From IMG/VR virus record IMGVR_UViG_3300025099_000028, positions 1 through 54,514 of that record: DNA of 54,514 nucleotides; one strand, given 5' to 3'. Positions 2,612-53,860 of the stretch are shown here, piece after piece. A program made the translations under genes and the position numbers. The number at the start of each line of letters is the position of its first letter. The stretch's first letter is position 1. The notes under the pieces are model-generated. The model had not been told where the DNA came from. It made no database searches and worked only from the letters and a program-made list of their open reading frames with translations. This stretch comes from a virus.

Positions 2612-3006
2612 GTAATGAAAAAGAAGTACGTCAATTTGAAGATATCATAATGAATAAATTTATTAGTGACGAACTCCCTGTATTTGAGATAGAAGGCTTA
2701 TCGGGCGATTCTAAATATGACACATTGCCATCAGATAAAAAAGAAGCTTATGATCTTGCTATGTTTAAATACTTTCAGCAAGCTCAAACAGCTAAATCTG
2801 AAGCCAATGATAGATATGCTAGCATGGAATTTCCCAATTTTGTAAAGCTACATGATCCTAATCCTGGCTTCCATGAAGTATTAAGAGATAAAGATTCTGA
2901 GCCAGGAGCTGCTAATGTATGGCATGATATCTACAATAGAGATACAGCTCTTATGAAAGAGAGTGCATTAAAAGGATTGCGACGTATGATTGCGGCACAA
3001 ATGTAA
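2608..3006 (+). CDS. Unknown packaging-region protein (132 aa)
   Basis: A soluble, acidic-to-neutral protein with no recognised domain. It contains a Lys/Asp-rich region (DTLPSDKKEAYDLAMFKYF) followed by a helical half. Its start overlaps the small terminase stop (ATGA) and its stop overlaps the next ATG (TAATG), so it is made together with terminase. A packaging accessory role is inferred from position only. Confidence 0.6.
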   Translation: MSNEKEVRQFEDIIMNKFISDELPVFEIEGLSGDSKYDTLPSDKKEAYDLAMFKYFQQAQTAKSEANDRYASMEFPNFVKLHDPNPGFHEVLRDKDSEPGAANVWHDIYNRDTALMKESALKGLRRMIAAQM

Positions 3007-3203
3007 TGGATTTAAAGGGCTTGTCTGTCATGATAGGCGGGATGGTTGAAAAAGAAGTGTCTAGTAAAAGATTTGATATATGTAATGATTGTGATAGCTT
3101 AAGGGCTAATGATACATGTAAGGAATGTGGATGCTATATGAAGGCTAAGACAAAATTTAAGAAAGCATCTTGTCCATTGGGCAAGTGGGGCGCAACTGAG
3201 TAA
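3006..3203 (+). CDS. Small zinc-ribbon protein (65 aa)
   Basis: Cys pairs lie at C26-x2-C29 and C38-x2-C41-x-C43, with a further Cys in the final SCPLGKW. This CxxC...CxxCGC...CP pattern is typical of small phage zinc-binding proteins encoded beside terminase genes. Zinc binding is well supported by spacing; function is unknown. The ATG overlaps the previous stop. Confidence 0.7.
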   Translation: MDLKGLSVMIGGMVEKEVSSKRFDICNDCDSLRANDTCKECGCYMKAKTKFKKASCPLGKWGATE

Positions 3204-3228
3204 TATAAATTTAAATAATGTTTCTAAG

Positions 3229-4752: not shown

Positions 4753-4753
4753 T

Positions 4754-5404
4754 ATGAACGATAATGAGTTATATAATAATCTATTAAATAAGGCAGCTTC
4801 ATCTGCTGGATTAAAGCCTGAAGAGATAGAATATGCTATGGATGTTATTATTAATCACGAAAGCGCAGGAACATTTGACCCATATATTGAGCAGACAGGA
4901 GGGGGTCCTGGTAGGGGGCTATTCCAGTATGAGATAATGGGTGGCGATGGAAGTGGAGCAGGCAGAACTGCAATGAATTATTTACATAGAGTTTTAGGGG
5001 GTCAAGCTGGCTATGGGAGTGGTAGAGACCCAGTTAATTTCCCAACTTGGATGAAAGAATTTTTTCCAAAAGAAACTCAGAGTGGAACTCCTACAGAGTT
5101 TAGGCAGCCTGTTGGCGAGGTAGATGTTACGAAACTAAATGTAATTCAGCAAAAGATTTTGTTTTTGGGTGATAAGATAGGAGATGGCAGTATATCTAAA
5201 CTTGGAGATAAATCTTTAGCCTCATGGTGGAGCGATCATCATCACAAGGGGAATGAATTAGTAAGAAAGGTCAGTTTTATTAAAGACCAGACTATGTATG
5301 ATGTTAATAAGGTTTATGATCAAGGTGTATCTCTTGTCTCTAAATTTTTTAATGATGAATATACTGAAGATAAAAATAAATTAAATAAAATTATAGGAGA
5401 ATAG
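4754..5404 (+). CDS. Lysozyme-like/transglycosylase-fold protein (216 aa)
   Basis: Probably a peptidoglycan hydrolase, either virion-borne or the endolysin. Residues 32-60 carry NHESAGTFDPY with a candidate catalytic Glu (E36), then GGGPGRGLFQYE, which resembles the ES...GLFQ motifs of lysozyme-superfamily enzymes. No signal peptide is seen. The ATG at 4754 is chosen because it sits 1 nt after the terL stop; the frame extends further upstream only inside terL. No other endolysin candidate exists in the window, so a lysis role is possible, but the position among packaging and head genes suggests a virion lysin. Confidence 0.65.
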   Translation: MNDNELYNNLLNKAASSAGLKPEEIEYAMDVIINHESAGTFDPYIEQTGGGPGRGLFQYEIMGGDGSGAGRTAMNYLHRVLGGQAGYGSGRDPVNFPTWMKEFFPKETQSGTPTEFRQPVGEVDVTKLNVIQQKILFLGDKIGDGSISKLGDKSLASWWSDHHHKGNELVRKVSFIKDQTMYDVNKVYDQGVSLVSKFFNDEYTEDKNKLNKIIGE

Positions 5405-5405
5405 T

Positions 5406-5864
5406 ATGGCAAGTACAATAACATCAGCCCCATTAACAGTGAAGATTACAGAATCTTGCACTTTAAATGGAGTTCAGCAGGGTGGCACATATACAAAAAC
5501 AATTTCAGGCATTAATGAGATATCTAAAAGAATCGTTACTGCTACAACTACTTTATCTACTGTATTAGCTTTTGCCGCTGAAGTTGCAGCTGGAACATAT
5601 ATAATAGCAAATGTAAAATATATACGACTTAGCAATTTGGGAAGTGTAGATGTAACTGTTCAGATTAATAGCACGGCAGCCACTGAGGCTGCTGCTTTTC
5701 TTTTAGGGGCAGGTGAAAGCTTTATGTTATTTGATATTGATGATGCATTTGGAGCACATGATTCTTCCATAGGGGCATTAGCCGCAGATGCAGATATATC
5801 AGCAATTCAATTAGATACAGCATCAAGCACAGCTAATGTTGAAATTTTAGTCGCAAGTTCATAG
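5406..5864 (+). CDS. Beta-rich virion-type protein, paralogue 1 (152 aa)
   Basis: A Thr/Ser/Ala-rich, beta-strand-rich protein beginning with an ITSAPLTVKITES segment. It is clearly related to the next gene: both share an L-T-V-x-I-(T)-E/S-S start, a T-x-x-x-I-x-x-INEx-S-(K/R)-RIVT motif and a similar Gly/Asp-rich C-half. Tandem copies next to the portal gene suggest head decoration or neck fibre proteins. An SD (TAGGAG) lies 10-15 nt upstream. Function is inferred from composition and place only. Confidence 0.6.
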   Translation: MASTITSAPLTVKITESCTLNGVQQGGTYTKTISGINEISKRIVTATTTLSTVLAFAAEVAAGTYIIANVKYIRLSNLGSVDVTVQINSTAATEAAAFLLGAGESFMLFDIDDAFGAHDSSIGALAADADISAIQLDTASSTANVEILVASS

Positions 5865-13941: not shown

Positions 13942-16116
13942 ATGCTGAATGGAATGATAAACTCAATATCTGGAGCAAGTGTTTCTGGTGGAAGTTCTGC
14001 TGAAATACATTCAGATAAAACTAGAGATAATTATGGAATGGGTGAAAATCTAGTATTTAATACTAATTCTACTAACAATATAGCTATTGGTGAAGATGCT
14101 TTAAATAGTACTGGTAATGCTGCTCACTATAATATTGCTCTTGGTACTGAGGCTTTAACTGCAAATGCTACAGGCGATGGTAATGTAGGTATAGGTCATG
14201 GTGCTGGAAAGATGCTTGTAACAGGTATTAATAATGTTATAATAGGTTATGGGGCTATGGATGCAGCAGCTGGAAGTGAGGAATATAATGTAGTTATAGG
14301 TAGTGATGCTATGGGTGCAGTTGATGAAGGCACAGGTGGAGGTTCGGCTAATTCTAATATTGCCATAGGGCATGAAGCTGCAAAAGGTGCTGATTTTGCT
14401 GGGGCTAATAGAAGTTTTATTGGTCATGTTGCTATTGGTCATCAAGCATTAGCAACAGGTAGTACAACTACTTCTACCACAGGAAATGTAGCTATAGGGT
14501 ATCAGGCTCTTACTGCAAGTGAAGGAGTAGGTGGTCAAGTAGCTATTGGCTATCAAGCTGGAAAAGCTTTAACAGATGGAGTTGCCAATCTAGCCATTGG
14601 TTATAATGCTATGCTAGAGCATACTACAGGTGGATACAATATAGCTATTGGTTATGGGGCTATGGATGATACAGGGGCGAATGATTGCCCTGAATCTACA
14701 GATAATGTATTTATAGGTTATCATTCTGGTGGTGGTACATGGACTACAGATGATTCCAATTACAATGTAGGTGTAGGAAACTATACTATGGATTTCCAAA
14801 TGAATGGGGCTATACATAATTCAGCTCTAGGGTATCATGCATTAGGGGGAATAACAAGTGGGACTAATAATACAGCTCTTGGTAGTAATGCTGGATTGTC
14901 TGTTAGTACAGGGATAAATAATACATTCGTTGGTAGTGGCTGTGGAGATGCAGTTACTACTACAAACAATAATACAGCTGTTGGTTATGCTGCTTTATCG
15001 GCAGGAGCTGGAGTTGGAAATACTGCTATGGGATATTCAGCAGGGACTAATCTTACTTCTGGTACATATAATACTGCTATAGGCTATAACGCTATGCAGA
15101 CTTCTGCAGCTACACACAACGCTGTTGCTATAGGCTCACACGCACTATATAGTGCTAGTGCAGATGATACTAATGGCACAGTTGCTATTGGTCAAGCTGC
15201 CGCATACAAGTATGCTCCTACTTCTGGAGGTACTTATACTGGAGCATCTACTATCATCGGATACCATGCTGGATATGATGATACTGGGGCTGGAGGAGGA
15301 CTAACAACAGGAATACAAAATACTGCTGTAGGGCATGAAACTTTAGGTGCTAATGCAGGAGATGGAGTTGCCTTAACAGGTAGTGGTAATACTGTAATGG
15401 GATATAGGGCTGGGTATGGGCTGAATGGTAGTTCCTCTTATAATACATTGATTGGTCGTCAAGCAGGAGATGCCGTGACTACAGGTGCAGGGAATACTGC
15501 TGTTGGTTATAATGCAGATGTACCAGCTCAAGGAACTTATCAAACAGCTATAGGTTATGCTGCTGTATCTCAAAATAACAATGAAACTCGTGTAGGAATG
15601 CATGGTGGGTTTCAATTTTACAGCAGAGAGATTACCTGTGATTTAGGGGGGGGTGCTGAAAATGACCCTGCCCACGCAACTCCTATAGGTAAAATCCCAC
15701 GATATGCCGTTATCACAAGAGCAACAGCAGTAGTGATTGGATTAAGTTCTGATGCTAATCATACTTTAAAGCTTGTACTAGCTACAGATGGAACTGGTGC
15801 AGATAATACTGCATTAAGCGGAGTGCAAGAGGTCATTGGAGCAGGTGCATCTAACTCATGGAGTTCTACAGGTGCAGCTGGAGCAGCCGCTGATATAAAT
15901 GTCGCAAGTGGAGCTGTTGAAAAAACAGCATATACAGCAATCCCTTATGACCCAGCAGGGGCAACAGATTCAGGTCTTGCAGCCTTAGATACAACTGGAG
16001 GAGATTTATCTCTATACTTAGCTTTTGCAGATACTAATTACACTAATGGTGATTCATCTAACCCAAGTACAGCACCTATAGTTAGAGTATATATAGAGTT
16101 CGCAGGTCAAGATTAA
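13942..16116 (+). CDS. Tail fibre with YadA-head-like repeats (724 aa)
   Basis: Residues about 46-555 hold some 28 copies of a short motif, N-(T/I/V)-A-(I/V)-G-Y-x-A-x, separated by 7-16 residues rich in Gly, Thr and Ser. This is the pattern of the left-handed beta-roll in YadA/Hia-type trimeric adhesin heads, also used in phage fibres. The first 45 residues probably attach to the virion, and the last 170 (from FYSREITCDLGGG) form a separate beta-rich tip. Probably a trimeric receptor-binding fibre. It follows the preceding gene by 1 nt. Confidence 0.8.
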   Translation: MLNGMINSISGASVSGGSSAEIHSDKTRDNYGMGENLVFNTNSTNNIAIGEDALNSTGNAAHYNIALGTEALTANATGDGNVGIGHGAGKMLVTGINNVIIGYGAMDAAAGSEEYNVVIGSDAMGAVDEGTGGGSANSNIAIGHEAAKGADFAGANRSFIGHVAIGHQALATGSTTTSTTGNVAIGYQALTASEGVGGQVAIGYQAGKALTDGVANLAIGYNAMLEHTTGGYNIAIGYGAMDDTGANDCPESTDNVFIGYHSGGGTWTTDDSNYNVGVGNYTMDFQMNGAIHNSALGYHALGGITSGTNNTALGSNAGLSVSTGINNTFVGSGCGDAVTTTNNNTAVGYAALSAGAGVGNTAMGYSAGTNLTSGTYNTAIGYNAMQTSAATHNAVAIGSHALYSASADDTNGTVAIGQAAAYKYAPTSGGTYTGASTIIGYHAGYDDTGAGGGLTTGIQNTAVGHETLGANAGDGVALTGSGNTVMGYRAGYGLNGSSSYNTLIGRQAGDAVTTGAGNTAVGYNADVPAQGTYQTAIGYAAVSQNNNETRVGMHGGFQFYSREITCDLGGGAENDPAHATPIGKIPRYAVITRATAVVIGLSSDANHTLKLVLATDGTGADNTALSGVQEVIGAGASNSWSSTGAAGAAADINVASGAVEKTAYTAIPYDPAGATDSGLAALDTTGGDLSLYLAFADTNYTNGDSSNPSTAPIVRVYIEFAGQD

Positions 16117-22401: not shown

Positions 22402-24293
22402 TGGCTAGAAATTCCAGAGAGCTTCAGCATTTAAAGTCGTCTAGGACTACAACCAAGAAAGGGATTCCTCGTCATGATGAAGGTTCTGATGGAGATCTTA
22501 CTCTAAGGTTAACTAATACAGGGCTGAAGTTATTTGCTAAATATCAAAATAGATGGTATATAGTTGGTGAGTATATGAAAGAAGCTGTCTTAGACGAAAG
22601 AAGAATGTCTCACCATCAAGTTCATGCGCAATCTCCGGCATCACTTACTCGCAATGGAGATTTAAGTCTTCAAAGCGGAAGGGCTGTATCTTTTGATGGA
22701 GATAAGGGAAAGGTAAGTATTGGTGGCGATCCTGACACATCCGGGAACAATCGTGATATTCTAGTAAAAGTACAATCTGGAGCATTGAAAATAGAAGATG
22801 ATGGCGTAGCAACTGGTACTCCTCAGTTGCTACTTAAGTCTAACAGTGATACAGGGTCAGGAGGATTTTTAGGTTTTATTAAGGACAGAGATGGAGTTGG
22901 AGGCACTGCAAATGATGATGGAGATACCATTGGAGGTATAATATGGCAGGGTTTCGATTCGGCCACTCCACCTAACCCAACACAATTCGTGAATATATCT
23001 GGATATGCTTTGGATACCACTAGTGACACTGAGGCGGGGAAATTAATGCTTAGTGTAGCAACAAAGACTTCGGGAGGTTCTACTATTGCCGATGGCATTA
23101 TACTATTAGGCTCAGATACAAACAATGAAGTAGATGTATCAATTGGGAAGGGGACAGCATCTATGACTACTATTGCTGGGAACTTAGATATAGATGGGAA
23201 TAAGATAACCTCAGCAGGAGCATTAGAAATAGAGACTGGTGGGAGTGGTGGTTTAACTTTAGATGTCGCTGGCAATGTAACAATAGATGCTGATGGTGGC
23301 TATGTATATATTAACGATACTTCTCCAGCAGCTTTTAGCCCTTCTCTTTGGTTAAAATCAACTGATACTGGAAATGAAGGCCCTTATATTTTCTTTCAGC
23401 AAGATACTAGTGATAATAGCCCGGCTGCAGGCGATGTATTAGGTGGGCTTGCATTTTATGGAGATGATGTTGGCGGTGCTATTACTAACTATACAAGCAT
23501 ACTATCTAAAATTTCATCCACTGCAGCTGGCGCAGAAGAAGGTCAAATGATCTTTATGTGTGTAGCTGGTGGGGCCATTCGTGAAGGCTATAAGATGACA
23601 GCCAATGGCAGTAATATTGATGTTCAAGTTGGTTATGGGGCTACCTCTACAACTACTATAACAGGTAATTTAGATATAGATGGGGCAAAGATTACAAGTG
23701 TAGGGGCTTTAGAGATAGACCCAGGTGGACAATTATCCGTTACAGGTCAAGACATGAGTGTTGACTCAACTAAAAAAGTTATATTTGGAGATGCTGGTGA
23801 ATATATAGTTGGGGACGGAACTGACTTGAATATTGTTTCAAGTGGGCATGTAGAGTTTGATGGTTGTGGAGTAGGGTTTGATAAGGAAACTACAGCATTT
23901 ACTGCTGCTGCTGTAACATCTGAAGGTAATGATTCAACTGATATTGACTTTAGACTTGGAAATAAGCATGAATTAACACTTTCTGATAATATTGCAGGAT
24001 CAGGCGAGCATATAAATATGATATTCCCAGCTACTTCAGGTAATTTTATATTAGCATTAATACAAGATTCTTCTGGGAGTCGAACAGTTCATAGTGATGG
24101 ATGGAAGGCTTATGCTTCTGATGCAAGTTTATGTGATAATACTTTAGGGGCAAATGGTACAGATGGAGAGGTAAGATGGCCAGGAGGAACCGCTCCTACG
24201 TTAACAACAGGAGCAAGAAAAACAGATATAATTTCAATATATTGGGATGCAGATAATCAAACTGCTTGTTGCGTAGCGAGTTTAAATTTCTAA
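22401..24293 (+). CDS. Tail fibre with internal duplication (630 aa)
   Basis: The first 85 residues (basic, LTLRLTNTGLKLFAKYQNRWY) form an attachment-like region. Two related modules of about 150 residues follow (about 139-300 and 313-455); each opens with L-L-K-S-x-x-DTG and ends with GNLDIDG-x-KIT-S-x-GALEI. The C-terminus is a beta-rich tip containing SGEHINMIFPATSGNFILAL. Probably a trimeric receptor-binding or bridging fibre. It is coupled at both ends by TAATG. Confidence 0.72.
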   Translation: MARNSRELQHLKSSRTTTKKGIPRHDEGSDGDLTLRLTNTGLKLFAKYQNRWYIVGEYMKEAVLDERRMSHHQVHAQSPASLTRNGDLSLQSGRAVSFDGDKGKVSIGGDPDTSGNNRDILVKVQSGALKIEDDGVATGTPQLLLKSNSDTGSGGFLGFIKDRDGVGGTANDDGDTIGGIIWQGFDSATPPNPTQFVNISGYALDTTSDTEAGKLMLSVATKTSGGSTIADGIILLGSDTNNEVDVSIGKGTASMTTIAGNLDIDGNKITSAGALEIETGGSGGLTLDVAGNVTIDADGGYVYINDTSPAAFSPSLWLKSTDTGNEGPYIFFQQDTSDNSPAAGDVLGGLAFYGDDVGGAITNYTSILSKISSTAAGAEEGQMIFMCVAGGAIREGYKMTANGSNIDVQVGYGATSTTTITGNLDIDGAKITSVGALEIDPGGQLSVTGQDMSVDSTKKVIFGDAGEYIVGDGTDLNIVSSGHVEFDGCGVGFDKETTAFTAAAVTSEGNDSTDIDFRLGNKHELTLSDNIAGSGEHINMIFPATSGNFILALIQDSSGSRTVHSDGWKAYASDASLCDNTLGANGTDGEVRWPGGTAPTLTTGARKTDIISIYWDADNQTACCVASLNF

Positions 24294-24841
24294 TGGCTTT
24301 TAAAGACACAACATTAACCTTTGAAGATGATAAAATCCTAACTGATGATGGTGGAGAGGTTATGATGTCTTGGGAAGCTTCAATAATGGAAAAGAGTGCT
24401 GAATATATATGCCATAATAGTGGAGATGTTTTAGAGATAGGTTTTGGTATGGGTATCTGTGCTGATTATATACAAGCACAAGGAGTTAATTCACATACTA
24501 TTGTTGAGATACATCCACAGGTTATTGAAAGGTTAAATACGTGGGCAAGTGGTAAATCTAATGTTACTGTAATAGAGGGTGATTGGAATAGTGTTAGTGG
24601 ATTAGGAACTTATGATGGAATATTTATAGATACATTTGGTGATGATGATTGGTTTAGTTTTAAAGACTTTGCTACTTCAAAGGCTAAATCAGGAGCAAAG
24701 ATAACTTATTGGAATAACTTTACAGATAATAGAAATGAGCATAATTTTGATTCTGTTAGTTTTGAAAACATATCAGTAACACCTGATGATAACAGTTATT
24801 TTACATCAAATACTTATAATATGCCAAAGGTAGAACTATAA
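24293..24841 (+). CDS. SAM-dependent methyltransferase (182 aa)
   Basis: Class I methyltransferase fold. Motif I VLEIGFGMG at residues 46-54, the acidic ribose-binding site IVEIHP (E72), the motif II/III area IEGDW (95-98) and YDGIFIDTFGDDDW (107-120). The arrangement resembles guanidinoacetate or arginine N-methyltransferase-like enzymes, which also have the MMSWEASIME type N-helix. It starts at ATG 24293, overlapping the fibre stop (TAATG). Lying between fibre genes, it may modify a virion protein or a host target. The substrate is unknown. Confidence 0.78.
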   Translation: MAFKDTTLTFEDDKILTDDGGEVMMSWEASIMEKSAEYICHNSGDVLEIGFGMGICADYIQAQGVNSHTIVEIHPQVIERLNTWASGKSNVTVIEGDWNSVSGLGTYDGIFIDTFGDDDWFSFKDFATSKAKSGAKITYWNNFTDNRNEHNFDSVSFENISVTPDDNSYFTSNTYNMPKVEL

Positions 24842-43258: not shown

Positions 43259-43674
43259 ACTGTTTCATCTCCTAATGATTGATACGTTACCTCTCCAGTA
43301 TCTTGGTTAAATTTATTGCTATTGACAAATCCGCTGTCAGCCAAGAACTCTTCCGTGCCCCATTCAACATTGGCTTCAGCTTCAGCCATTGCCCATAACA
43401 GGGTAAGGTATACAATGGCATCTTTAATTCTGCCTCGTACATCTTCTCTTTGAGATGTGTGCCCATTTACATGAGCTATAATTCCATCCATATGCTTTAT
43501 TAAGAATGTCATTAACACCTTATCTCTCGTTGTACCTAATTGCTTTGCTGTTCTTTCAAAGTTTGCAAATACATTAATTACATCATGAGCATACTCCTTT
43601 TGTCCTTCATCTCTTGTTTGTTTGATATCATTAATGATTTCTGTGAAGAACTCATCAAATTGATCTTTTGTCAT
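43255..43674 (-). CDS. All-alpha MazG-like/Nmad1-like protein (139 aa)
   Basis: A helical protein with KEYAHDVINVFANFERTAKQ, LIKHMDGIIAHVNG and RGRIKDAIVYLTLLWAM. This is the pattern of phage proteins related to the all-alpha NTP pyrophosphohydrolase fold (MazG-like; Pfam Nmad1/DUF1599 type), which may act on nucleotides during phage DNA synthesis. The metal-binding ExxE/D signature is not obvious, so activity is uncertain. It lies directly downstream of the primase-helicase (TAATG). Confidence 0.5.
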   Translation of the reverse strand: MTKDQFDEFFTEIINDIKQTRDEGQKEYAHDVINVFANFERTAKQLGTTRDKVLMTFLIKHMDGIIAHVNGHTSQREDVRGRIKDAIVYLTLLWAMAEAEANVEWGTEEFLADSGFVNSNKFNQDTGEVTYQSLGDETV

Positions 43675-45461
43675 TAATACTCTCCAATCTCTACTATTTC
43701 ATTTTTAATTAACTTATTATTGATTACTTCTAACCTCATATCTACATGCTCACGTTCACGATTAGCCTCACATCTAATACGTAGTTCTTCAATTAACCCT
43801 GTAACTTTACTTTTTGAAGGGATAACTGATAATAATTTATTAGTATTATATGCGGTTCTAAATGAACCTTTAGCTGAAGCTACATTCATATTACCTTCAT
43901 GAAATGCACCTTTTGTTATTTCGCTAACTGTAAATACCACTATATTATGCTTAACAGCTACTTCCATTAGTGCCTGAGATGCTTCTTCAGTCTTCATATT
44001 TGGATCTCTATGTTTAGATTTAAATAAACCCATATGATCAACTACTACTATTTCTGGCTTAGAAGATAGCATTGATATACGTTTATCTAATTCGTTAGCA
44101 TAAGGACAAGAATAATCGACTGTAAGCCATCCAAACCTTTCATCCATGCCATTTTTACCTTTAGCATAATGCTGTCGTAATTGATCTTCGCTCCATCCCA
44201 TTTCTATTTGAACAAACCTAGACCATATTTGTCTTGGAGACATTTCCATCTCTATAAAGTATGTAGGTCTTTTAAATCCATTCATTAGATTCTGTAAGAA
44301 CATAGTCTTCATGCTCTTTGGAGGTGCTTGAACAACTACTACTTCACCTGGATATATGGGAAAGTTCTCACCAGTCCATATGTCTCCAAAGTCAAGAGGC
44401 TTTTGATTGCTTGTTAAGAAATTAATTAGTGATGTTTCCATGGTATTGGAATCCATAACTGTCTGGTTTTTCTTAGACTTATAGAGTTTGCATGTATTTT
44501 TACAATGGTTATCCATTATCTTATCACCACATCCATATCTATTCCCAGATCCTCCATGAGCATCATATGAGCTATTTACTATGCTTTCCATTTCTTTCAT
44601 TGTAAATGGACTGCTAGGATCGTCTACTTGTTGTCTCCATCGCTCCATAACCGTACAAACAATAGACTCAGGATAAAGCCAACGAAACCAAGCAGAGAGC
44701 CGTAAAGCAGTTGCATGTCGTTCTCCGTGGGCATTAGATGCAAGCATACTAGATATACAAGGGTAATTAACTGGATCAGGATTCCTACCTTGATTGATAA
44801 ATTCTGGCGTACTTTGTTCTTCATATTTATTCCTTTTCATTACATCGAATACGGGATCGCATTCTAATTCAAATTCAGATACTGGCCCTGGTTTTTTACC
44901 TATGCTTTGCATATGAGCAGTTATATCTTTTGTATCTAAATCTTTACGACTTATTTCTCTTTTCCATAATTGAGCTTTAAGATTCATGGTATTAACTACA
45001 CGTATTAATCTAATCTTATCTGTAACCGATGGATCTGCATAGTCAAATATTCCAGCATTAGTTAAAGCATCTTTTACTTTTAAATGTAATAAAGGATCTG
45101 GTTTCCACCTAAAAGCTGTGGCAGGGATCCCTACATGGAAGCCTTTATTACCGCTAAAATAAAGCTTATAAGGTATAGATAGATCGTCCAACAGTAACAA
45201 TAATCCTATTGTTTTCTGTCTAGCATTTTCTAAATCATTTTTATCTTTACCATCTACATCTAATATAAATTCATCAGGTATATAAACTAGTCCATCAAAT
45301 CCAGATAATGTATGCTTCTTAGCAAAAAAGTCTTTAATTTCATCGTCAAATTCATATAAAGACATATAAGTATCTTTATCTATGTTCATCCAGTCACATA
45401 TACTGGAACTGTCTTGAAAATAATGTCTTTGAGTTAATCCAAAGGCAAATTCTTTTATCAT
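43674..45461 (-). CDS. Archaeal-type primase / Fe-S / RecA-helicase fusion (595 aa)
   Basis: It probably unwinds DNA and makes primers at the fork. N-terminus: archaeo-eukaryotic primase core with FILDVDGKD (D68, D70; metal motif) and FSGNKGFHVGIP (residues 102-113, His109; nucleotide motif). Middle: PriL-like cluster C234 (NYPCISSML), C310, C319 and C323 (YGCGDKIMDNHCKNTCK), a likely 4Fe-4S site. C-terminus: RecA/SF4 helicase with a variant Walker A APPKSMKT (378-385) and Walker B VVVDH (D474). AAGGAG precedes ATG 45461. Small and large primase subunit parts fused to a helicase is uncommon. Confidence 0.8.
   Translation of the reverse strand: MIKEFAFGLTQRHYFQDSSSICDWMNIDKDTYMSLYEFDDEIKDFFAKKHTLSGFDGLVYIPDEFILDVDGKDKNDLENARQKTIGLLLLLDDLSIPYKLYFSGNKGFHVGIPATAFRWKPDPLLHLKVKDALTNAGIFDYADPSVTDKIRLIRVVNTMNLKAQLWKREISRKDLDTKDITAHMQSIGKKPGPVSEFELECDPVFDVMKRNKYEEQSTPEFINQGRNPDPVNYPCISSMLASNAHGERHATALRLSAWFRWLYPESIVCTVMERWRQQVDDPSSPFTMKEMESIVNSSYDAHGGSGNRYGCGDKIMDNHCKNTCKLYKSKKNQTVMDSNTMETSLINFLTSNQKPLDFGDIWTGENFPIYPGEVVVVQAPPKSMKTMFLQNLMNGFKRPTYFIEMEMSPRQIWSRFVQIEMGWSEDQLRQHYAKGKNGMDERFGWLTVDYSCPYANELDKRISMLSSKPEIVVVDHMGLFKSKHRDPNMKTEEASQALMEVAVKHNIVVFTVSEITKGAFHEGNMNVASAKGSFRTAYNTNKLLSVIPSKSKVTGLIEELRIRCEANREREHVDMRLEVINNKLIKNEIVEIGEY
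44624..44824 (-). CDS. Overprinted two-span membrane ORF inside the primase (66 aa)
   Basis: In another frame of the primase-helicase gene, ATG 44824 follows AAAAGGAATAAAT, the SD spacing used by other genes here. The product has two hydrophobic segments (GILIQLITLVYLVCLHL; LLGFVGFILSLLFVRLW) and a charged end, like a small class II holin. It could be chance, since the SD-like bases encode Lys-Arg-Asn in the main frame. It overlaps residues about 210-280 of the main protein. Confidence 0.25.
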   Translation of the reverse strand: MKNKVRQNLSIKVGILIQLITLVYLVCLHLMPTENDMQLLYGSLLGFVGFILSLLFVRLWSDGDNK

Positions 45462-46727: not shown

Positions 46728-47387
46728 TTACACTACCATCGCTGACTTTTCCAATAACATATTGGGGAAGTTAAACGAAAATTCCTTATTATAAGGCTGT
46801 CCTGTTGCTAGTTTACGTACTGCATTTGCTATAAAACTACCACTCATAAATGCGCAGTATGCCGTTGCTTTTGCAGCACAAGGTTCAGGAGATCCTTCAT
46901 TATCTGAGTACCATGTCTTCTTGTATTTACTTACAGTAGGTTTATCAAAAATATACTGTTGATAGTGCTCTGCCCCCATCCTGCCGTCTATTAAATGTAT
47001 TGGCTTAATAGTTGGGTTAGAGCATAAAGCCTCTACTGCTTGTAATCTTGCTTCCATAGAATCAAAGCCTAATATTGCAATATCTGATTCACCTTGAGGA
47101 TAAAACTCTGTAAATCTTTCGTTATACATGTTAACATGATTAACACCTATAGATTCTAAATGCCCTTTTAATGCATCTACTTTAGACTTATCTATATCTT
47201 CAAGTATATATTGAGATACTCCAATATTTACATCTTCTACTTTATCCATATCATATAGACAAAATTTATTAGCTCCCATTCTCGCTAATTGCATGGCAGT
47301 GGAGCTACCTATAGCCCCACAACCAAGAATGTGAAAATGAAAATCCTCTAAATTGTTTACCAATCCACTTGATCTTTCATTAATCAT
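46728..47387 (-). CDS. E1/ThiF-like adenylyltransferase (219 aa)
   Basis: It would activate the C-terminal glycine of a ubiquitin-like protein by adenylation. Rossmann motif: HILGCGAIGSSTAMQLARMG (residues 19-38). Acidic nucleotide site: CLYDMDKVEDVN (D46, D48, N54). KSKVDAL gives the conserved Lys (K69). DGRMGAEHYQQYIF (134-147) matches the conserved D-x-R strand. C170 in SPEPCAAKA is a candidate catalytic Cys, as in ThiF-type 'PC' sites. There are no CxxC zinc pairs and no fused domain. It is shorter than ThiF. AAAGGAGA precedes ATG 47387, and the upstream 49-aa gene ends in a TAATG overlap. Confidence 0.82.
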   Translation of the reverse strand: MINERSSGLVNNLEDFHFHILGCGAIGSSTAMQLARMGANKFCLYDMDKVEDVNIGVSQYILEDIDKSKVDALKGHLESIGVNHVNMYNERFTEFYPQGESDIAILGFDSMEARLQAVEALCSNPTIKPIHLIDGRMGAEHYQQYIFDKPTVSKYKKTWYSDNEGSPEPCAAKATAYCAFMSGSFIANAVRKLATGQPYNKEFSFNFPNMLLEKSAMVV

Positions 47388-47536
47388 TAGTCTCCTTTCA
47401 TAGTATGATTTTCTTTAACCCATAATGATATATTTAGCAAAGAGTGAAATATATGATCTTCAGAAGGGTTTTCTTCATAATGTCTTTGCTCTTCATCTAA
47501 ATACATATCAACTATCTTTATTAAATCATTGATCAT
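47387..47536 (-). CDS. 49-aa protein between JAB and E1-like genes
   Basis: The ATG at 47536 overlaps the JAB stop (TAATG), and its own stop overlaps the E1 ATG (TAATG); GGAGG lies upstream. It is acidic and helical (IKIVDMYLDEEQRHYEENP; IFHSLLNISLWVKEN). Coupling at both ends makes it a likely structural partner of the system. It is not long enough to be a beta-grasp or E2 domain. No family is recognised, and it is easy to miss by length cut-offs. Confidence 0.65.
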   Translation of the reverse strand: MINDLIKIVDMYLDEEQRHYEENPSEDHIFHSLLNISLWVKENHTMKGD

Positions 47537-48438
47537 TAATATATACCTCCATAACTTTGATTAAAATACCATTCATCTTTTTTATCGTCTGCATCTTTAT
47601 TTTCTCCCCATACAGCCATATCTTCTGGGCTATATAAAGGTTCAATAAAGTCTTCAGATTTACGATGAATAACATCTTTCTTCAGCTTTTCTTCACTTGT
47701 AACATCATCAATATACCAGTCATTCAGCTTTAAATTAAATGCTGCAACAATTCTTTCCCATTCATTGAATGTGATTTCACCTGCTGCAAATCTATAATTT
47801 AATGAAGTGATTAATTGAATAGCATTTTTAGCTTCTTGATCTGAATCTATATTAGTAGCCTTAATCAAAGATGTTTGATTTGGATTAGGTTTAACATATG
47901 CTTTTCCATATTGATAAGCAGTATATTTACGTTTACTACATAGCTTTTCAACATCATTCAAGATCTTCTTGGGCACTTTTCTTTCTTCACCTTCAAGTAA
48001 TTCAACCTTTGTATCTATATGCATCTCAAATGGTTTCCAGCAAGAAACCCTGAATATATGCTTACCTTTAAGGTTTATTACAAGCGCAAAGCTAAAGTCA
48101 CCATCAGAATATTCTTTAATGGCAGTTAAGTCTGTTCCTGACCAAAAAGCATCCATTGTGTGATGACTATGCCACCATACAAATCTAAAGTTAGAGTCCT
48201 TATGCTTGACCCCAGCCTTAGTATAGTATAATGCTAAGGCATCTTTATCTAGTATGCAATTAGATCCAGATATTTCTTGCTTCAATATAACAGGATCTTC
48301 TAGTATCCAGTCGCCATCTTTATCTTCTACAGCTACTAACATACCTCCTATTTCTGATTTATGCTTATCATATGCTACTTGTGCATAATCATGCAATTTT
48401 TGCCAGTTTGCCTCTGATGTGTAAAATGATTGATTCAT
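47536..48438 (-). CDS. JAB/JAMM metalloprotease (300 aa)
   Basis: A zinc isopeptidase/peptidase of the JAB/MPN+ type that could trim or remove a ubiquitin-like modifier. The motif is complete: E29 (SEIGGML), H90-x-H92 (WWHSHH), seven residues, S100, two residues, D103 (SGTDLTA). It is followed by the usual FSFALVINLKG strand. Residues about 150-300 form a helical extension of unknown function ending YFNQSYGGIY. ATG 48438 is chosen over a GTG at 48444 because AAAGGGG lies 6-7 nt upstream. It is coupled to the 49-aa gene (TAATG). Confidence 0.85.
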   Translation of the reverse strand: MNQSFYTSEANWQKLHDYAQVAYDKHKSEIGGMLVAVEDKDGDWILEDPVILKQEISGSNCILDKDALALYYTKAGVKHKDSNFRFVWWHSHHTMDAFWSGTDLTAIKEYSDGDFSFALVINLKGKHIFRVSCWKPFEMHIDTKVELLEGEERKVPKKILNDVEKLCSKRKYTAYQYGKAYVKPNPNQTSLIKATNIDSDQEAKNAIQLITSLNYRFAAGEITFNEWERIVAAFNLKLNDWYIDDVTSEEKLKKDVIHRKSEDFIEPLYSPEDMAVWGENKDADDKKDEWYFNQSYGGIY

Positions 48439-48461
48439 TTTCACCCCTTTCTCTTATTAGT

Positions 48462-50141
48462 TTAAAATGGTAAGTCAGCGTCAGCAGACTCTCTAGTTTC
48501 GGTAACCTGTATTGGTATACCTCTACCTGAGGCTGAATAACTTTCCAGTAATTCTCTTTCTAGTTCACTAGTAGTATTATGCTCTGATGTTTCTGTTTCC
48601 ATTGGTATTATCTGAGGGGTTATAGTTCTATCATGATAGTAACTATCTAACCATGAATAAAAGCCATCAGCTCCCATTTCATAATCTTCCATATGATCTA
48701 TAGTCTCAGCAAAACTTATCTCTCTAACTAAAGATGCCATAATATATAACATAGACTCAGAATCAACATTTATTGCAAAGTATGTATGAATATTGCGTAC
48801 CATTCTGTTAATATGGTCCTCTGCGGCACTCCAATTATCATTCATTTGAACTAAAGCTCTGTCCATTCGGCTAGAATATATAGCCTCATCACTTAGTGTC
48901 TCAAAGTTGTGTCCTCTAGATATCATATAGTTTGCTAATATTTGCTCTCTCATGGCTAATATTGCATCATCAACAACAGTATATGCATTTTCGTATTTAC
49001 GGCAGACACTCCTCATTGTACATTCATAAGCATCACAATAAGACTCAGATTGTATTAATGGCAAATTATATTCACAGCTTCCTGATGTGCGATGACTAAG
49101 CAAGCCATCCATATCCCCATCATATAGTGCGCTTGGAGAACCATAATACATTTTGGTGTAATTATTTAATGGTCCAGTTGTATTGATATTATAGAAACTA
49201 CCCCAACTATTCAGCCAAAACATTACTTCATCAAGTCTACCTTTAGACATTGGCTTTAAGATTCTATCTTTTAAGTCACCGAAACATAAAGAAGTGTATC
49301 CATCTTTATTTGATCCTTCATATGTATTTGCACTTGTTTCGTCCATTCTAGTATAACTTTGGACTTCATTATAATTAATAACCCTTGATGAATATCCTCT
49401 GCCACTACTAATATATGGAAATTCTAATCCTTTATTTAATGGGACATATTGACCACCTAAATGATAACCATGATGCTGATATCTATTATCAAAGCGTAAT
49501 TCATTACCTGATATAGCTCCTCCAATTATTTGAACTAAATCTAATGCAATGAACATCTTAACTTTGCCGGTTTTAATAGGAGCATATAATGTACTTTTAC
49601 CTATATTCATATTAAAACTGTCTACTTCTATGATAAATACAATATAATCTTTATTCATATCATCATTTCCTTGAGCATGATAAACTTTAAAATTATATTC
49701 ATTATCGGTATTATTAATAACTTCAGTAGTACTCATGATGTTATTAAACCATTCATGTGTACTTTCTATTACTGATTCAGAATTATCCTGAAATGTTATT
49801 CTATTAGACCTTAACCTATATAGCATTGAATCTATAGAAGTAACATCTCGATTTAATTGCCTTGCATACCATTCATTATTAGATATTCTATTAAATGCTG
49901 TTTTTACATTCTTAGGAAATGTAGTAAGCTTCATAACCTTTAGCTGTAATGCATGTAATTTCTTATAGAAACCAGGTTCCCATCTGAATGTCTTTGTACA
50001 TCTAATATCTGAACCAAATCTAAAATTAAATGCATTAATCTTAGATAAAACTTCCTCTTGTGGACCTACTATTACTCTCTCAGCTATATCATTTAAGTCT
50101 ATAGAATGGTCGGTAATCTCTGATTTTAAATTGAATTGCAT
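48462..50141 (-). CDS. 559-aa protein, candidate E2-like partner of the JAB/E1 set
   Basis: A large protein of unrecognised family. Residues 190-320 hold beta-rich segments (GKVKMFIALDLVQIIGGAI), a His cluster YQHHGYHLGG (221-230) and GYTSLCFGDL with Cys286, followed by a helix LDEVMFWLNSWGSFYN. In prokaryotic E2-like families a reactive Cys in a short 'C-x-G' motif follows a His motif and precedes a helix, so a divergent E2 role is possible, but an insert of about 60 residues separates the motifs. Cys at 356, 369, 374 and 380 may bind metal. It ends ADADLPF, like an SSB tip. AAGGAGA precedes ATG 50141. It lies upstream of the JAB gene (23-nt gap). Confidence 0.5.
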   Translation of the reverse strand: MQFNLKSEITDHSIDLNDIAERVIVGPQEEVLSKINAFNFRFGSDIRCTKTFRWEPGFYKKLHALQLKVMKLTTFPKNVKTAFNRISNNEWYARQLNRDVTSIDSMLYRLRSNRITFQDNSESVIESTHEWFNNIMSTTEVINNTDNEYNFKVYHAQGNDDMNKDYIVFIIEVDSFNMNIGKSTLYAPIKTGKVKMFIALDLVQIIGGAISGNELRFDNRYQHHGYHLGGQYVPLNKGLEFPYISSGRGYSSRVINYNEVQSYTRMDETSANTYEGSNKDGYTSLCFGDLKDRILKPMSKGRLDEVMFWLNSWGSFYNINTTGPLNNYTKMYYGSPSALYDGDMDGLLSHRTSGSCEYNLPLIQSESYCDAYECTMRSVCRKYENAYTVVDDAILAMREQILANYMISRGHNFETLSDEAIYSSRMDRALVQMNDNWSAAEDHINRMVRNIHTYFAINVDSESMLYIMASLVREISFAETIDHMEDYEMGADGFYSWLDSYYHDRTITPQIIPMETETSEHNTTSELERELLESYSASGRGIPIQVTETRESADADLPF

Positions 50142-50322
50142 TTTTCATCTCCTTTATACAATATAAACACCTTTCTCGTTCTATGCCAGCTTGTGGAAAA
50201 TCTGCGTAAAATTCGGTACCATATTGAGCACCATAACACCAATATTCCCAAGTTCTTTTACAAGATTGACACACTTTAACATTTCTTGTCGGATTCTTTT
50301 CTTCTTCTCTAAATCGCCCCAT
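50089..50322 (-). CDS. Zinc-ribbon protein (77 aa)
   Basis: C18-x2-C21 (VCQSCKRTW) and C52-x2-C55 (CLYCIKE) are typical zinc knuckles. GGAGG lies 6 nt before ATG 50322. It overlaps the start of the 559-aa gene in another frame, so translation is probably coupled. Function is unknown. Confidence 0.6.
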   Translation of the reverse strand: MGRFREEEKNPTRNVKVCQSCKRTWEYWCYGAQYGTEFYADFPQAGIERERCLYCIKEMKNAIQFKIRDYRPFYRLK

Positions 50323-50428
50323 CTAAAGCCTCCTGACAGTCGCTACATACTTTTTGTTTATGCTTTAGTGGAAATCCAGCTAAATATTCACCACATTCTA
50401 CGCATACAGGCTCATCAACTTGATTCAT
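50309..50428 (-). CDS. Short zinc-ribbon protein (39 aa)
   Basis: The frame reads MNQVDEPVCVECGEYLAGF and ends KVCSDCQEALDGAI, giving two CxxC pairs in 39 residues, the minimum for a zinc ribbon. It overlaps both neighbours, and AAAGGA lies upstream. Composition and packing support it; it is below most length cut-offs. Confidence 0.55.
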   Translation of the reverse strand: MNQVDEPVCVECGEYLAGFPLKHKQKVCSDCQEALDGAI

Positions 50429-50747
50429 ATATAAATAATCCTTTCGTATTTGCTTCTACTTCACGACCTACAGCTATAACTTCAGCTTTAGCCATATTAA
50501 TAGCATTAATTACCTTATTTTCATCCCAATCATCAACAAGAGCTCTGAATCTTTTAAATAATAAGGCTGTTAAGAATGCTTCTATATCTTTATAGAAATA
50601 TCTTTCACCTCTTTTAATCATTGCCTCTTCAGTTGAATGGGGTGGGCCAGTTATCAATATCCATTGATGTTCATCTTTGGTTAAAATGCATCTACGTTTA
50701 CCAACATTTGAATTTACTATAATTGTTTTGTCAAGTATTTTAAGCAT
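50415..50747 (-). CDS. Unknown early protein (110 aa)
   Basis: A soluble protein with a beta-rich start (LDKTIIVNSNVGKRRCILT, WILITGPP) and a helical end (FLTALLFKRFRALVDDWDEN; VINAINMAKAEVIAVGREVE). GGAGA precedes ATG 50747, overlapping the wHTH gene end. No family is recognised. Confidence 0.6.
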   Translation of the reverse strand: MLKILDKTIIVNSNVGKRRCILTKDEHQWILITGPPHSTEEAMIKRGERYFYKDIEAFLTALLFKRFRALVDDWDENKVINAINMAKAEVIAVGREVEANTKGLFIYESS

Positions 50748-51030
50748 TTAATCTCCAGATATGTGTGTTTTTACCATAGCTACTCTTCTGTAACTCATCG
50801 GTTTTAGTTAACTTATCAGCTTTAGTTAAAGTATTTATGGCTCGTCTAATACTAGTAATTGGCCATGTCTTACCTAAATCTAAGCATCGTAATTCTATAT
50901 CTTCAGGTGAAAATCCTCGTCCTGGGTTCCATATAAATATTTGATATATTAACTCTTCTTGTTTTGCGGTTTGTATCCATGATGACCTTAGTTGAGGTCC
51001 AGTTTCATTGGTCGTATTATAATATGTCAT
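50740..51030 (-). CDS. Winged helix-turn-helix protein (96 aa)
   Basis: The order of helices and strands (LIYQIFIWNPGRGFSPEDI; WPITSIRRAINTLTKADKL; HIWRLNA) is that of a winged-helix DNA-binding domain, possibly a phage regulator or a replication-initiation accessory. ATG 51030 overlaps the upstream stop (ATGA). Confidence in the fold is moderate; the target is unknown. Confidence 0.6.
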   Translation of the reverse strand: MTYYNTTNETGPQLRSSWIQTAKQEELIYQIFIWNPGRGFSPEDIELRCLDLGKTWPITSIRRAINTLTKADKLTKTDELQKSSYGKNTHIWRLNA

Positions 51031-51176
51031 TTTTTATCCTTCTTTAAATCATTTAAGCTTTTAAATGCTACAATCTTACCTTTAACCATTTTGGCAAATT
51101 TCATTGCTTGATGTCTTATATTAAAAGATTTAGATATCTTTTCTTTACCCATCTTAAACTTAACTATATATCTCAT
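51027..51176 (-). CDS. Short basic protein (49 aa)
   Basis: A Lys-rich peptide (starts MRYIVKFKMGKEKISKSFN, ends DLKKDKK) with a beta-rich core. AAGGAG precedes ATG 51176, and the stop overlaps the wHTH start (ATGA). Possibly nucleic-acid binding. It was not in the size range of ordinary gene callers. Confidence 0.55.
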   Translation of the reverse strand: MRYIVKFKMGKEKISKSFNIRHQAMKFAKMVKGKIVAFKSLNDLKKDKK

Positions 51177-51422
51177 GTGTTCTCCTTGTTTGTTCTATAG
51201 CCACACTCCTTGAAAATCACGTGGTCAGACGCAAAACCCATAGAATGTGGCTTTAGAATTAATAATATATAGTAGAATTTATGCAGTTTCAGTGACCTTC
51301 GTGGTTTGAACCCACCTGATTTCTCCCGTTGTTTAATAGCAGGCACTATTAAAGACTACATATTATTGGTCTTGTTATCAATATTTGGGTGTGTTATACT
51401 CCCACCCAAGAGTACTGAGGAC
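51177..51422 (-). promoter_or_regulatory. Non-coding region with three stem-loops after the Ubl gene
   Basis: Perfect stems are seen at 51385-51409 (TTGGGTG/CACCCAA), 51333-51352 (TTAATAG/CTATTAA, 6-nt loop) and 51199-51252 (AGCCACA/TGTGGCT). A shorter GTGG/CCAC hairpin with a T-arm-like loop lies at 51301-51315. No ORF with an SD is seen in the gap. The first stem may end the Ubl transcript, and the last lies 23 nt before ATG 51176. No whole tRNA could be folded. Confidence 0.45.
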
Positions 51423-51629
51423 TTACTTCTCTCCACCAGTTTTATCATTGCTAACAGCAGCTACTAGATCACCATCTTGTAAGCTATATGAATTAGATTT
51501 ATTAGATCCATTCACTGCTACAGATGCACTAGAGCTAATATCAAGCTCTTCTCTAAGCTCACATATTGTTTCTGCTCTAACTTCTTGCTCTACGAAGCCG
51601 CCACCGGCTAACACTTTTATACTTGGCAT
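51423..51629 (-). CDS. Ubiquitin-like (ThiS/MoaD-type beta-grasp) protein (68 aa)
   Basis: A small beta-grasp modifier candidate. SIKVLAG and FVEQEVRAE look like strands 1 and 2, TICELREELDI like the helix, and VAVNG...SYSLQDGDLVAAVS like the last strands. ThiS/MoaD proteins share the vNG...L-DGD-V pattern. It ends DKTGGEK: Gly-Gly at 65-66 followed by two residues. ThiS and MoaD end in GG exactly, so the EK extension would need proteolysis before activation, and a JAB protease and an E1-like enzyme are encoded in the same block. AAAGGAG precedes ATG 51629. Sulfur transfer is an alternative role. Confidence 0.72.
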   Translation of the reverse strand: MPSIKVLAGGGFVEQEVRAETICELREELDISSSASVAVNGSNKSNSYSLQDGDLVAAVSNDKTGGEK

Positions 51630-52260: not shown

Positions 52261-52549
52261 AATCTATTTCTCCTTCCATTATTTGACGGAATATTTCTTC
52301 CATATTAATATCTTCAGTAGTATTATCAGCTATCCAATTGCTTGCCTTAGCTGCACCTAAAACTTTATATAGTTCCCTGTATTGATCTTCCCTATTTGGT
52401 TCTTCTATTGGTGCATTGTGCTTAACTGGATATTTCTTTGCATCCATTTTAGGATCATCATACTTATCGATCATCCTAGTTTCATAGCATTTCTTGTGAT
52501 AATCTATCCCTTCTTGGACAGGTTTATCACATCCTTTACATTTATACAT
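52250..52549 (-). CDS. Zinc-finger-like protein (99 aa)
   Basis: The start is ATG 52549 after AAGGAG. The first 25 residues carry MYKCKGCDKP and DYHKKC, forming a CxxC...HxxxC treble-clef-like site. An acidic helical C-terminus follows. Possibly a nucleic-acid or protein adaptor. No family is recognised. Confidence 0.55.
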   Translation of the reverse strand: MYKCKGCDKPVQEGIDYHKKCYETRMIDKYDDPKMDAKKYPVKHNAPIEEPNREDQYRELYKVLGAAKASNWIADNTTEDINMEEIFRQIMEGEIDYDE

Positions 52550-53306
52550 GAGCGTTCTCCTTCTCATTAGTGGTTAAGTAGTATTTACCTATATCTTTAT
52601 TAAAACCTATAATGCCAGTTTGCATTAATGTTTCTACAATAGGATTTATAGATCCGTGAGCTTTACTGTGTGTAGATACATTGCATAAATATAAATTTTC
52701 AAGACGGTTGTCTTTCTTATTCATGTTAATATGATGTACCGATTCAGTAGGTAATAATGGTCTACCTAAATGCTCTTCCATAATAACTCTATGTTCAAAG
52801 ATAGTTTTCACTGCATATCCATCTTTACGACCATTCTTTTTATACTGTTGTATAAAATTACCATTTTCATCCAGTTTTCTTTCAGTCCATCCAATATAAT
52901 CAGAAATTAAAGTAGGGTTATTTCTTGTGTATTTAGTTTTACTATGTCGTATTTCTAGCCCAATTGAATCAATCGTTTTTTTACATTCACTATGGCCTTT
53001 AATATCTTGACCACAAGTCATACTACCATCTTCTGTTTTGCATTTACTTGGATGTCTAGTAGTTAAAGCTTCCTTACCACATACTTTACAGTTATATTTA
53101 TAGAAAAATATATTACTAACGTTTTTAAAGTCAGATCTCCTACCATAAACAGGTGTTCCTTTAACTATTCTTACCTTTAAATCATTCTCAGGATTATATG
53201 GTAATTGTTTAGTCATTCTTATATCACTCTTGCCATTAATTACATCAAAAGGACCTTCATAACCAGTATTTTCATTATAAGTTGCATTAAAATATGCGTA
53301 TGTCAT
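52542..53306 (-). CDS. HNH homing-type endonuclease (254 aa)
   Basis: The C-half holds an HNH motif with EHRVIMEEHLGRPLLPTE, then VHHINMNKKDNRLENLYL, the pattern of free-standing phage homing endonucleases. The N-half has Cys pairs (CKVCGKE; CKTEDGSMTCGQD; CKK) that form a likely zinc region. AGGAGAG precedes ATG 53306. It is probably a mobile gene inserted in the early block. Confidence 0.82.
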   Translation of the reverse strand: MTYAYFNATYNENTGYEGPFDVINGKSDIRMTKQLPYNPENDLKVRIVKGTPVYGRRSDFKNVSNIFFYKYNCKVCGKEALTTRHPSKCKTEDGSMTCGQDIKGHSECKKTIDSIGLEIRHSKTKYTRNNPTLISDYIGWTERKLDENGNFIQQYKKNGRKDGYAVKTIFEHRVIMEEHLGRPLLPTESVHHINMNKKDNRLENLYLCNVSTHSKAHGSINPIVETLMQTGIIGFNKDIGKYYLTTNEKENAHV

Positions 53307-53359: not shown

Positions 53360-53860
53360 TTAAAGTGGTGTAGTGCAGCTTCTGACTATTGTGTCTGGAT
53401 CTCCTAATCCATCACCGTCACTGTCAACAAACCAAGTTTTTATACCTTCTCCTCCACACACACCACATTCATCAATATAGTTCTCTGGGCAATAGAAGTT
53501 ATCATTTACATCATCTCCTACTTGTATCCAATTCTTAGGTATTTCTGATTCTAATAATGTAGTATATGTTGCACTATGCCATATGAATGTTTCATCTTTA
53601 CCTTTCATACGACGCATTAGGTTAAATGCTTCATCAAAGGTTAGGTCGTCAATATCAATATGAATTTCATTATTGTATCTACGCTCTTCTTCAAGCATTG
53701 CTTTCCATAATACTACTTCATCCTCTACCCCGTGTTGTTGGGATAGAGTTTCAGGTTCAGTTGGTGCTGGGCAATCTCTACCCATATAAGCTATAGCTAC
53801 TAGCATTAAGCCCATTAAAACCATTGCTATGAGCATTTTATGCTCTTTTATTGCTTTCAT
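53360..53860 (-). CDS. Membrane-anchored Ca-loop protein (166 aa)
   Basis: One N-terminal hydrophobic span (about residues 8-26) suggests membrane anchoring with a periplasmic or external domain. The C-half has CPENYIDECGVCGGEG and VDSDGDGLGDPDT (145-157), a thrombospondin-3-like calcium loop. A lipobox is not well formed. AAGGAGT precedes ATG 53860. Such motifs are common in secreted proteins of environmental bacteria, so it may be host-derived, possibly a surface or exclusion protein. Confidence 0.6.
   Translation of the reverse strand: MKAIKEHKMLIAMVLMGLMLVAIAYMGRDCPAPTEPETLSQQHGVEDEVVLWKAMLEEERRYNNEIHIDIDDLTFDEAFNLMRRMKGKDETFIWHSATYTTLLESEIPKNWIQVGDDVNDNFYCPENYIDECGVCGGEGIKTWFVDSDGDGLGDPDTIVRSCTTPL

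Follow-up and report, generated by a model that had tools for sequence, protein, structure and literature searches.

Can a tailed phage tag proteins with a ubiquitin-like modifier of its own? The question is raised by one locus of the IMG/VR virus record IMGVR_UViG_3300025099_000028, whose 54,514 bases (positions 1 to 54,514) were analysed as a whole and are called the window here. The window carries genes for a P22-type portal protein, a terminase, ERF, SSB and a primase-helicase, and thus belongs to a podovirus-like tailed phage. Towards its end lie genes for a ubiquitin-like protein (Ubl), a protein designated X, a JAB protease and an E1-like activating enzyme. Together they probably form a phage-encoded ubiquitin-like conjugation and deconjugation system, with catalytic steps and a role of X as conjugating enzyme (E2) that are suggested by sequence comparison and structure models. 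An earlier interpretation made from the letters of the DNA, referred to as the sequence-only reading, had recognised the Ubl, the JAB protease, a gene of 49 amino acids (aa) and the E1; all of these open reading frames (ORFs) were found in place on the minus strand, and the matches and conservation given below put the observation well beyond chance.

A conserved cassette of four genes

In the direction of transcription the Ubl gene (51423..51629, 68 aa) is followed by the gene of X (48462..50141, 559 aa), a probable E2-like conjugating enzyme, the gene of the JAB/JAMM metalloprotease (47536..48444, 302 aa), the 49-aa ORF (47387..47536) and the gene of the E1-like activating enzyme with ThiF fold (46728..47387, 219 aa), all on the minus strand. 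The TAATG overlaps thought to join protease and E1 through the 49-aa gene are real, with a single-base overlap at both ends (TTAATG, CTAATG). The 49-aa gene was rejected as a cassette member, since only few loci have it and most relatives (e.g., locus L012) do not; it is an optional passenger. The conserved cassette comprises four genes, those of Ubl, X, JAB and E1.

A scan of IMG/VR revealed 221 viral contigs encoding an E1 relative, and the best 80 of the 221 were used for profiles. The loci were picked by their E1, hence the counts describe the companions of the E1 and not the frequency of the cassette. In this profile survey of uncultured phages, which are termed marine by our reading of their source and not by a habitat record for each contig, the order Ubl, X, JAB, E1 on one strand was present in all 41 loci that had 4.5 kb or more of sequence upstream of the E1 gene, X always being located between Ubl and JAB. 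A JAB gene was present in 71 of 71 loci with at least 1 kb upstream. The expected co-occurrence of JAB and E1 with the Ubl in relatives thus held for every locus with enough flank. The genes of Ubl and X usually lie next to each other, with some 100 bases between them; in the window, approximately 1.3 kb of small genes separate X from the upstream Ubl. The ratios of non-synonymous to synonymous substitution rates (dN/dS) were 0.06 for Ubl, 0.29 for X, 0.14 for JAB and 0.14 for E1, indicating purifying selection on all four genes, and X evolved fastest, with six other genes compared ranging from 0.06 to 0.21.

Modifier, activating enzyme and protease

The Ubl was modelled with AlphaFold2 from its alignment (predicted local distance difference test, pLDDT, 82). 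The predicted structure is a beta-grasp of the ThiS/MoaD/ubiquitin type, in agreement with the sequence-only reading. Solved structures were matched over nearly the full chain, with ThiS (2lek, Z 8.9) and ThiS from the ThiS-ThiF complex (Z 8.0) ahead of MoaD (Z 7.6) and ubiquitin (Z of about 6.9); a profile search against solved structures gave MoaD as best match (E 0.1). In the window the protein ends with K63-T-G65-G66 and the tail EK. The presumed conservation of the double glycine was confirmed, as K-x-G-G (K63, G65, G66) was invariant (100%) in 41 homologues. The double glycine is the very C-terminus in 14 genomes; the remaining 27 add between 1 and about 60 residues to it.

The E1 matched the Pfam family ThiF (PF00899) with 8e-18 and PADLOC E1-E2 models at about 1e-12. 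Its best curated matches were ThiF models, far under their cut-off (63 bits versus 159 for the ThiF equivalog). Conserved in 66 homologues were R5, GCGAIG, D46-x-D48, K69, D109 and C170 of the crossover loop, so the earlier description of a ThiF-like enzyme with GCGAIG and C170 was borne out. C170 aligns across the E1s of phages and of the PRTRC cassettes treated below, and a thiamine ThiF was without it. The Arg of the NxxRQ motif was lost in every phage E1 group aligned and kept in PRTRC and thiamine ThiF proteins.

The protease, counted from a GTG start, carries E31, H92-S-H94, S102 and D105. These are the metal residues E29, H90, H92, S100 and D103 of the sequence-only reading, which had counted from an ATG at the third codon. 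Among 63 homologues E31 was kept in 98% and H92, H94, S102 and D105 in 98-100%. The Prok-JAB match (2e-4) lies slightly below the curated cut-off with the JAMM residues complete, the PADLOC JAB match was 8e-5, and the Pfam search returned no NlpC match; the C-terminal half is additional and uncharacterised. In all 14 genomes with a Ubl already ending at GG the JAB was intact. A protease kept intact where no trimming is required implies a role in deconjugation, and in the simplest reading of the sequences JAB would remove Ubl from targets besides maturing it.

X as candidate conjugating enzyme

X is composed of a helical N-terminal part with an invariant GPQ (residues 26-28), an E2-like domain at approximately residues 121-335 and a C-terminal cluster of four cysteines. 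The domain exhibits the motif P242-[YF]-[IVL] ... C286 ... W313 ... [TS]-x-P324-x-N, in which 14-50 residues separate the Cys from the HP motif. P242, C286, W313, P324 and C374 were kept in 43 of 43 X proteins, and position 241 is occupied by His in 30 of the 43 and by Phe or Tyr in the remainder, the window having Phe. The four cysteines behind the E2-like domain (C356, C369, C374, C380) were present in about 41 of 43 proteins, two relatives lacking most of them, and are possibly a Zn or Fe-S site.

In the AlphaFold2 model of X (pLDDT 73), a helix, a strand run, a long loop with P242 and C286 and further helices follow each other in the order of an E2. The solved structures placed on residues 128-330 belong to the E2 superfamily: UBE2W with Z 5.1 (112 residues, 3.6 Å), the UEV domain of TSG101 with Z 4.4 and the E2 domain of Cap2 with Z 4.1. 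The other rows of the VIA re-alignment were mostly helical proteins at residues 25-117. With hhalign, the X domain matched the E2s of a third group of gut phages (E 0.008), the crAss-like E2s (0.028) and PRTRC protein B (0.07) with the Cys in register, and these three families outranked all eight decoys. HMMER comparison of whole X or its E2 domain to crAss, PRTRC and jumbo-phage E2s plus decoys gave no significant separation, and the X profile yielded nothing above chance among solved structures. No meaningful match to X was obtained in Pfam, NCBIfam, PADLOC and PHROGs, and tblastn of the window X against cultured phages resulted in zero matches. Among predicted viral proteins there were six strong matches (E 1e-19 or better), followed by A0A1B0WLX5 (420 aa, E 0.002, probability 0.97). 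The latter is probably a Flavobacterium phage protein, because the E2-like protein of phage FpV4 likewise has 420 aa. Judged by the models, an E2 fold of X is likely. The earlier guess of an E2 at this position gained support from the invariant Cys in an E2-like motif, the E2-fold matches and the gene context, weakly so from the fold score.

Relation to known systems

The general features of Ubl conjugation were found in the window: a beta-grasp Ubl with a conserved GG, an E1 with a Cys and a JAB with a complete JAMM motif. As for the E2, Cys286 is invariant within an E2-like motif, the fold rows reach Z 5.1 at most, and no family model matched. The closest arrangement is that of the PRTRC cassette of plasmids and integrative and conjugative elements, with protein C (Ubl), B (E2, PF14460), A (JAB) and ThiF (E1) in the order ParB-E-C-F-B-A-ThiF. 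The phage cassette shares the order Ubl, E2, JAB, E1, a standalone small Ubl and separate genes for E2, JAB and E1. The PRTRC E2 has its Cys in [IVL]-C-x-G, then a W and often [TS]-H-P, as likenesses to X, and its E1 Cys aligned with that of the phage E1. In contrast to PRTRC, the phage Ubl ends in GG, the phage E1s are without the NxxRQ Arg that the PRTRC E1 keeps, and the cassette is encoded by tailed phages. The PRTRC B and C models, PF14460 (Prok-E2_D) and PF14454 (Prok_Ub) gave no match at curated cut-off while positive controls matched, and the window E1 reached 24 bits with the PRTRC model (cut-off 145). The profile searches against PRTRC and E2 families, by which the sequence-only reading was to be checked, thus gave no model that matched X or reached a PRTRC cut-off. 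ParB and PRTRC E or F were not recognised in the ORF lists of the window, a scan for them having covered some but not all of these ORFs. PRTRC membership was rejected: the gene order matches but no PRTRC model did. We equate PRTRC cassettes with operon type 6d of Iyer et al. 2006 (PMC1779556), an equation of our own.

With Bil, to which the locus had been likened before, the cassette shares the four-part set of Ubl, E2, JAB and E1. BilA has two Ubl domains, BilD two adenylation domains (IAD and AAD) plus a Cys domain, and BilB a CEHH motif, that is C, E at +6, H at +8 and H at +13 (PMC11354881). The phage cassette differs in having one Ubl domain (68 aa), a single-domain E1 of 219 aa and no CEHH; the window residues after C286 are FGDLKDRILKPMS, with D, I and S at +6, +8 and +13. 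Moreover, Bil belongs to the host and this cassette to a phage. The likeness did not hold: in the architecture of its E1, the number of its Ubl domains and the motif of its E2 the cassette departs from Bil, and membership was ruled out. The type II cyclic oligonucleotide-based antiphage signalling systems (CBASS) with Cap2 and Cap3 resemble the cassette in their E1/E2/JAB chemistry, and Cap2 is among the E2-fold rows of X; the phage differs in having E1 and E2 as separate genes, a Ubl gene and no nucleotidyltransferase that could be seen. Membership was rejected, as the Cap2-type E2-E1 fusion is replaced by an E1 standing alone with 219 aa. In the lambda-type tail proteins TAPI and TAPK, a phage Ubl adjoins JAB/NlpC (PMC1779556). 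Theirs is a tail assembly module without E1 or E2, whereas the present genes, E1 and E2 included, lie in a replication module next to ERF, SSB and primase and encode a JAB without NlpC; this assignment was rejected as well. A thiamine ThiF/ThiS pair was likewise dismissed, as the equivalog cut-off given above was not reached. The cassette would work like these known systems and belongs to none of the tested families.

Counterparts in other phages

A tblastn search of named phages with the E1 revealed relatives in crAss-like phages and in phages of the fish pathogen Flavobacterium psychrophilum, mostly annotated as 'thiamine biosynthesis protein'. Upstream of these lie, in order, the genes of a Ubl, an E2-like protein carrying HSH...C-x-G and a JAB whose motif is complete, in approximately 27 loci. 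In their Ubl the SG of a K-x-S-G stretch is invariant, and a C-terminal extension follows. In crAss001, gp79-gp76 are the counterpart of the cassette; another is found in Flavobacterium FpV phages (FpV4). In profile comparison with the marine proteins, which gave 100% for the E1s and 97-98% for the JABs, these two proved clearly homologous. For the E2s and Ubls, divergence is too great for homology to be proved by sequence. With gp78 of crAss001, tblastn retrieved relatives including proteins of the Bacteroides thetaiotaomicron phages DAC15 and DAC17, which are annotated as hypothetical proteins. In PHROGs, the four cassette families (phrog_15560, 15310, 16107 and 15670) are listed with unknown function.

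A third group, from the gut (L088, L113, L116), encodes a Ubl-like protein of 75-78 aa without GG, a protein with [HQ]PH[IL]...C, a JAB and an E1 in the same order; in another locus of this group, L114, neither a Ubl nor a JAB was recognised. In the Xanthomonas phage PhiXhv-12 (L229, about 228 kb), an 892-aa protein (2238-4916) with an E2-like HPHM...SHGSLCLGSF and a Cys-rich tail is directly followed by a ThiF-like E1 (4929-5612), with topoisomerase genes alongside. This pair is possibly a jumbo-phage version of the cassette with no recognised JAB or GG-Ubl. A phage-encoded set of E1, E2, JAB and Ubl was not described in the literature searched, which excludes most subscription papers and preprints, and the crAss-phage literature checked did not mention the cassette.

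A relative without the cassette

Ten long contigs were selected by their major capsid protein, independently of the E1. Seven of them carry E1, X and Ubl, three carry none. Two of the three, G009 and G010, were set aside as uninformative fragments, since they also lack SSB and primase. The third, contig G001, has a primase 78% and an SSB 72% identical to those of the window, and its ERF gene and two small genes nearby have been kept. A six-frame examination of 20 kb of this contig showed none of the four cassette genes, and searches of the whole record detected no E1, X or Ubl. One of the kept small genes sits between the expected sites of Ubl and of X-JAB-E1, so two separate stretches are missing. 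At the expected Ubl region of the cassette-less relative (L224:11983-12978), a DUF932 protein (PF06067, 2e-48) and other genes were observed. The joint absence across two separate stretches suggests that the four genes behave as a functional unit which is accessory and dispensable for the phage, a modest conclusion drawn from one genome. As G001 has no cassette yet retains ERF, SSB and primase, replication appears independent of these four genes; with the same modest weight of a single genome, dispensability argues against an essential role in replication or in the virion. A target in DNA metabolism, proposed earlier with the gene neighbourhood as its only argument, lost ground by this comparison.

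Proposed function and alternative explanations

In the proposed cycle, JAB would trim the residues behind the Gly-Gly of the Ubl. The E1 would adenylate the Gly-Gly carboxylate with ATP and take over the Ubl as a thioester, probably on C170, from where it would be handed to Cys286 of X acting as E2. X would then attach the Ubl to host or phage proteins in the infected cell and would probably select its own targets, because no E3 gene was seen, and JAB could also strip the Ubl from them. Several results weigh against this assignment. The Arg of NxxRQ contacts ATP in MoeB and ThiF, and it is missing from the window E1 (residues 54-59). The E2 fold scores of X are low, with Z 5.1 at most, plain Foldseek of X against the PDB returned nothing at E < 0.9, and no E2 model of Pfam or NCBIfam matches X. 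The profile-profile matches to E2s are weak (E 0.008-0.07 versus 0.19-0.62 for the decoys), and the eukaryotic HPN motif has its Asn replaced by Tyr or Phe in X and its His by Phe in the window.

For X, the weak fold score and the lack of an E2 family match, together with the long helical N-terminus and the four-Cys cluster, would also fit a substrate or adaptor, with E1, Ubl and JAB making direct conjugates without E2 as in archaeal samp-ylation. We consider this unlikely in view of the motif P-[YF]-[IVL]...C...W...[TS]-x-P-x-N with a Cys conserved to 100% at 14-50 residues from the HP motif, the E2/UEV folds in the rows over the E2-like domain, and the crAss-type counterparts with HSH...CxG at the same gene position. 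The same central protein with its invariant Cys in an E2-like motif speaks against a sulfur-carrier system, in which a thiocarboxylate made by the E1 on a ThiS/MoaD/Urm1-like Ubl would thiolate a tRNA, nucleotide or cofactor and JAB would only trim, as in the CysO/Mec type. The Ubl fold is indeed closest to ThiS and MoaD, and the E1 finds its best curated matches in ThiF models, though far under cut-off. However, rhodanese, cysteine desulfurase or sulfur-metabolism genes were not recognised within the cassette, JAB is retained where trimming is superfluous, and C170 is common to PRTRC E1s and missing from thiamine ThiF; a sulfur carrier is therefore quite improbable.

Ubl-type conjugation serves bacteria as a defence against phages (PMC10097602, PMC11153139, PMC11354881), and phage parts might jam or reverse a host defence of this kind (Bil, CBASS Cap2/Cap3, Bub) as decoy or antagonist without a cycle of their own. 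An accessory cassette with X evolving fastest would suit such a function; an E1 with conserved ATP site and catalytic Cys would be superfluous for it, and the active sites are retained jointly in separate phage groups, which makes this the least probable of the three alternatives. Active conjugation and deconjugation by the phage remains the preferred explanation. We infer that the cassette helps the phage against its host, by takeover or counter-defence, and does not serve core replication or virion building. Its accessory nature and the fast evolution of X fit a host-facing role, be it counter-defence, takeover or target competition. We lean slightly towards the wider view that a complete and self-sufficient Ubl tagging system, distantly related to PRTRC, is present in several tailed-phage lineages (marine podovirus-like phages, crAss-like phages, Flavobacterium phages and the third gut group) and labels proteins of host or phage in the course of infection, as a viral counterpart of bacterial Ubl immunity. 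A cassette of E1, E2, Ubl and JAB kept by phages would mean that viruses, both in the ocean and in the human gut, tag proteins themselves while infecting a cell. Proteins of crAss-like phages annotated as 'thiamine biosynthesis', 'metalloprotease' or hypothetical and the PHROG families of unknown function would have to be re-annotated. The question is testable now, with crAss001, DAC15/DAC17 and the FpV phages having named cultured bacterial hosts.

Further gene content and genome unit

GTDB genomes searched with the window E1 gave zero matches, and a tRNA search of the window found none. The primase of the window (43674-45461) is of the archaeo-eukaryotic type, fused to a DnaB-like helicase, and has only distant relatives among named phages (Thermus, Bacillus and Moorella phages). 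Two further proteins had no match in Pfam: a 724-aa protein (13942-16116) of repeats such as NxAIGxxA is similar to the head repeats of bacterial trimeric adhesins, and a 166-aa protein (53360-53860) looks membrane-anchored and has a calcium-binding-like tail, CGVCGGEG...DSDGDGLGDP, as is typical of surface proteins. Close to the cassette lies an HNH endonuclease gene (52542-53306, 1e-9), and a small methyltransferase-like gene (24266-24841) is located inside the virion module. The contig of locus L131 (G004, 104,488 bases) begins with a partial E1 and has a complete one 53.3 kb further on; a genome unit of about 53 kb, near the length of the window, therefore appears to be present twice.

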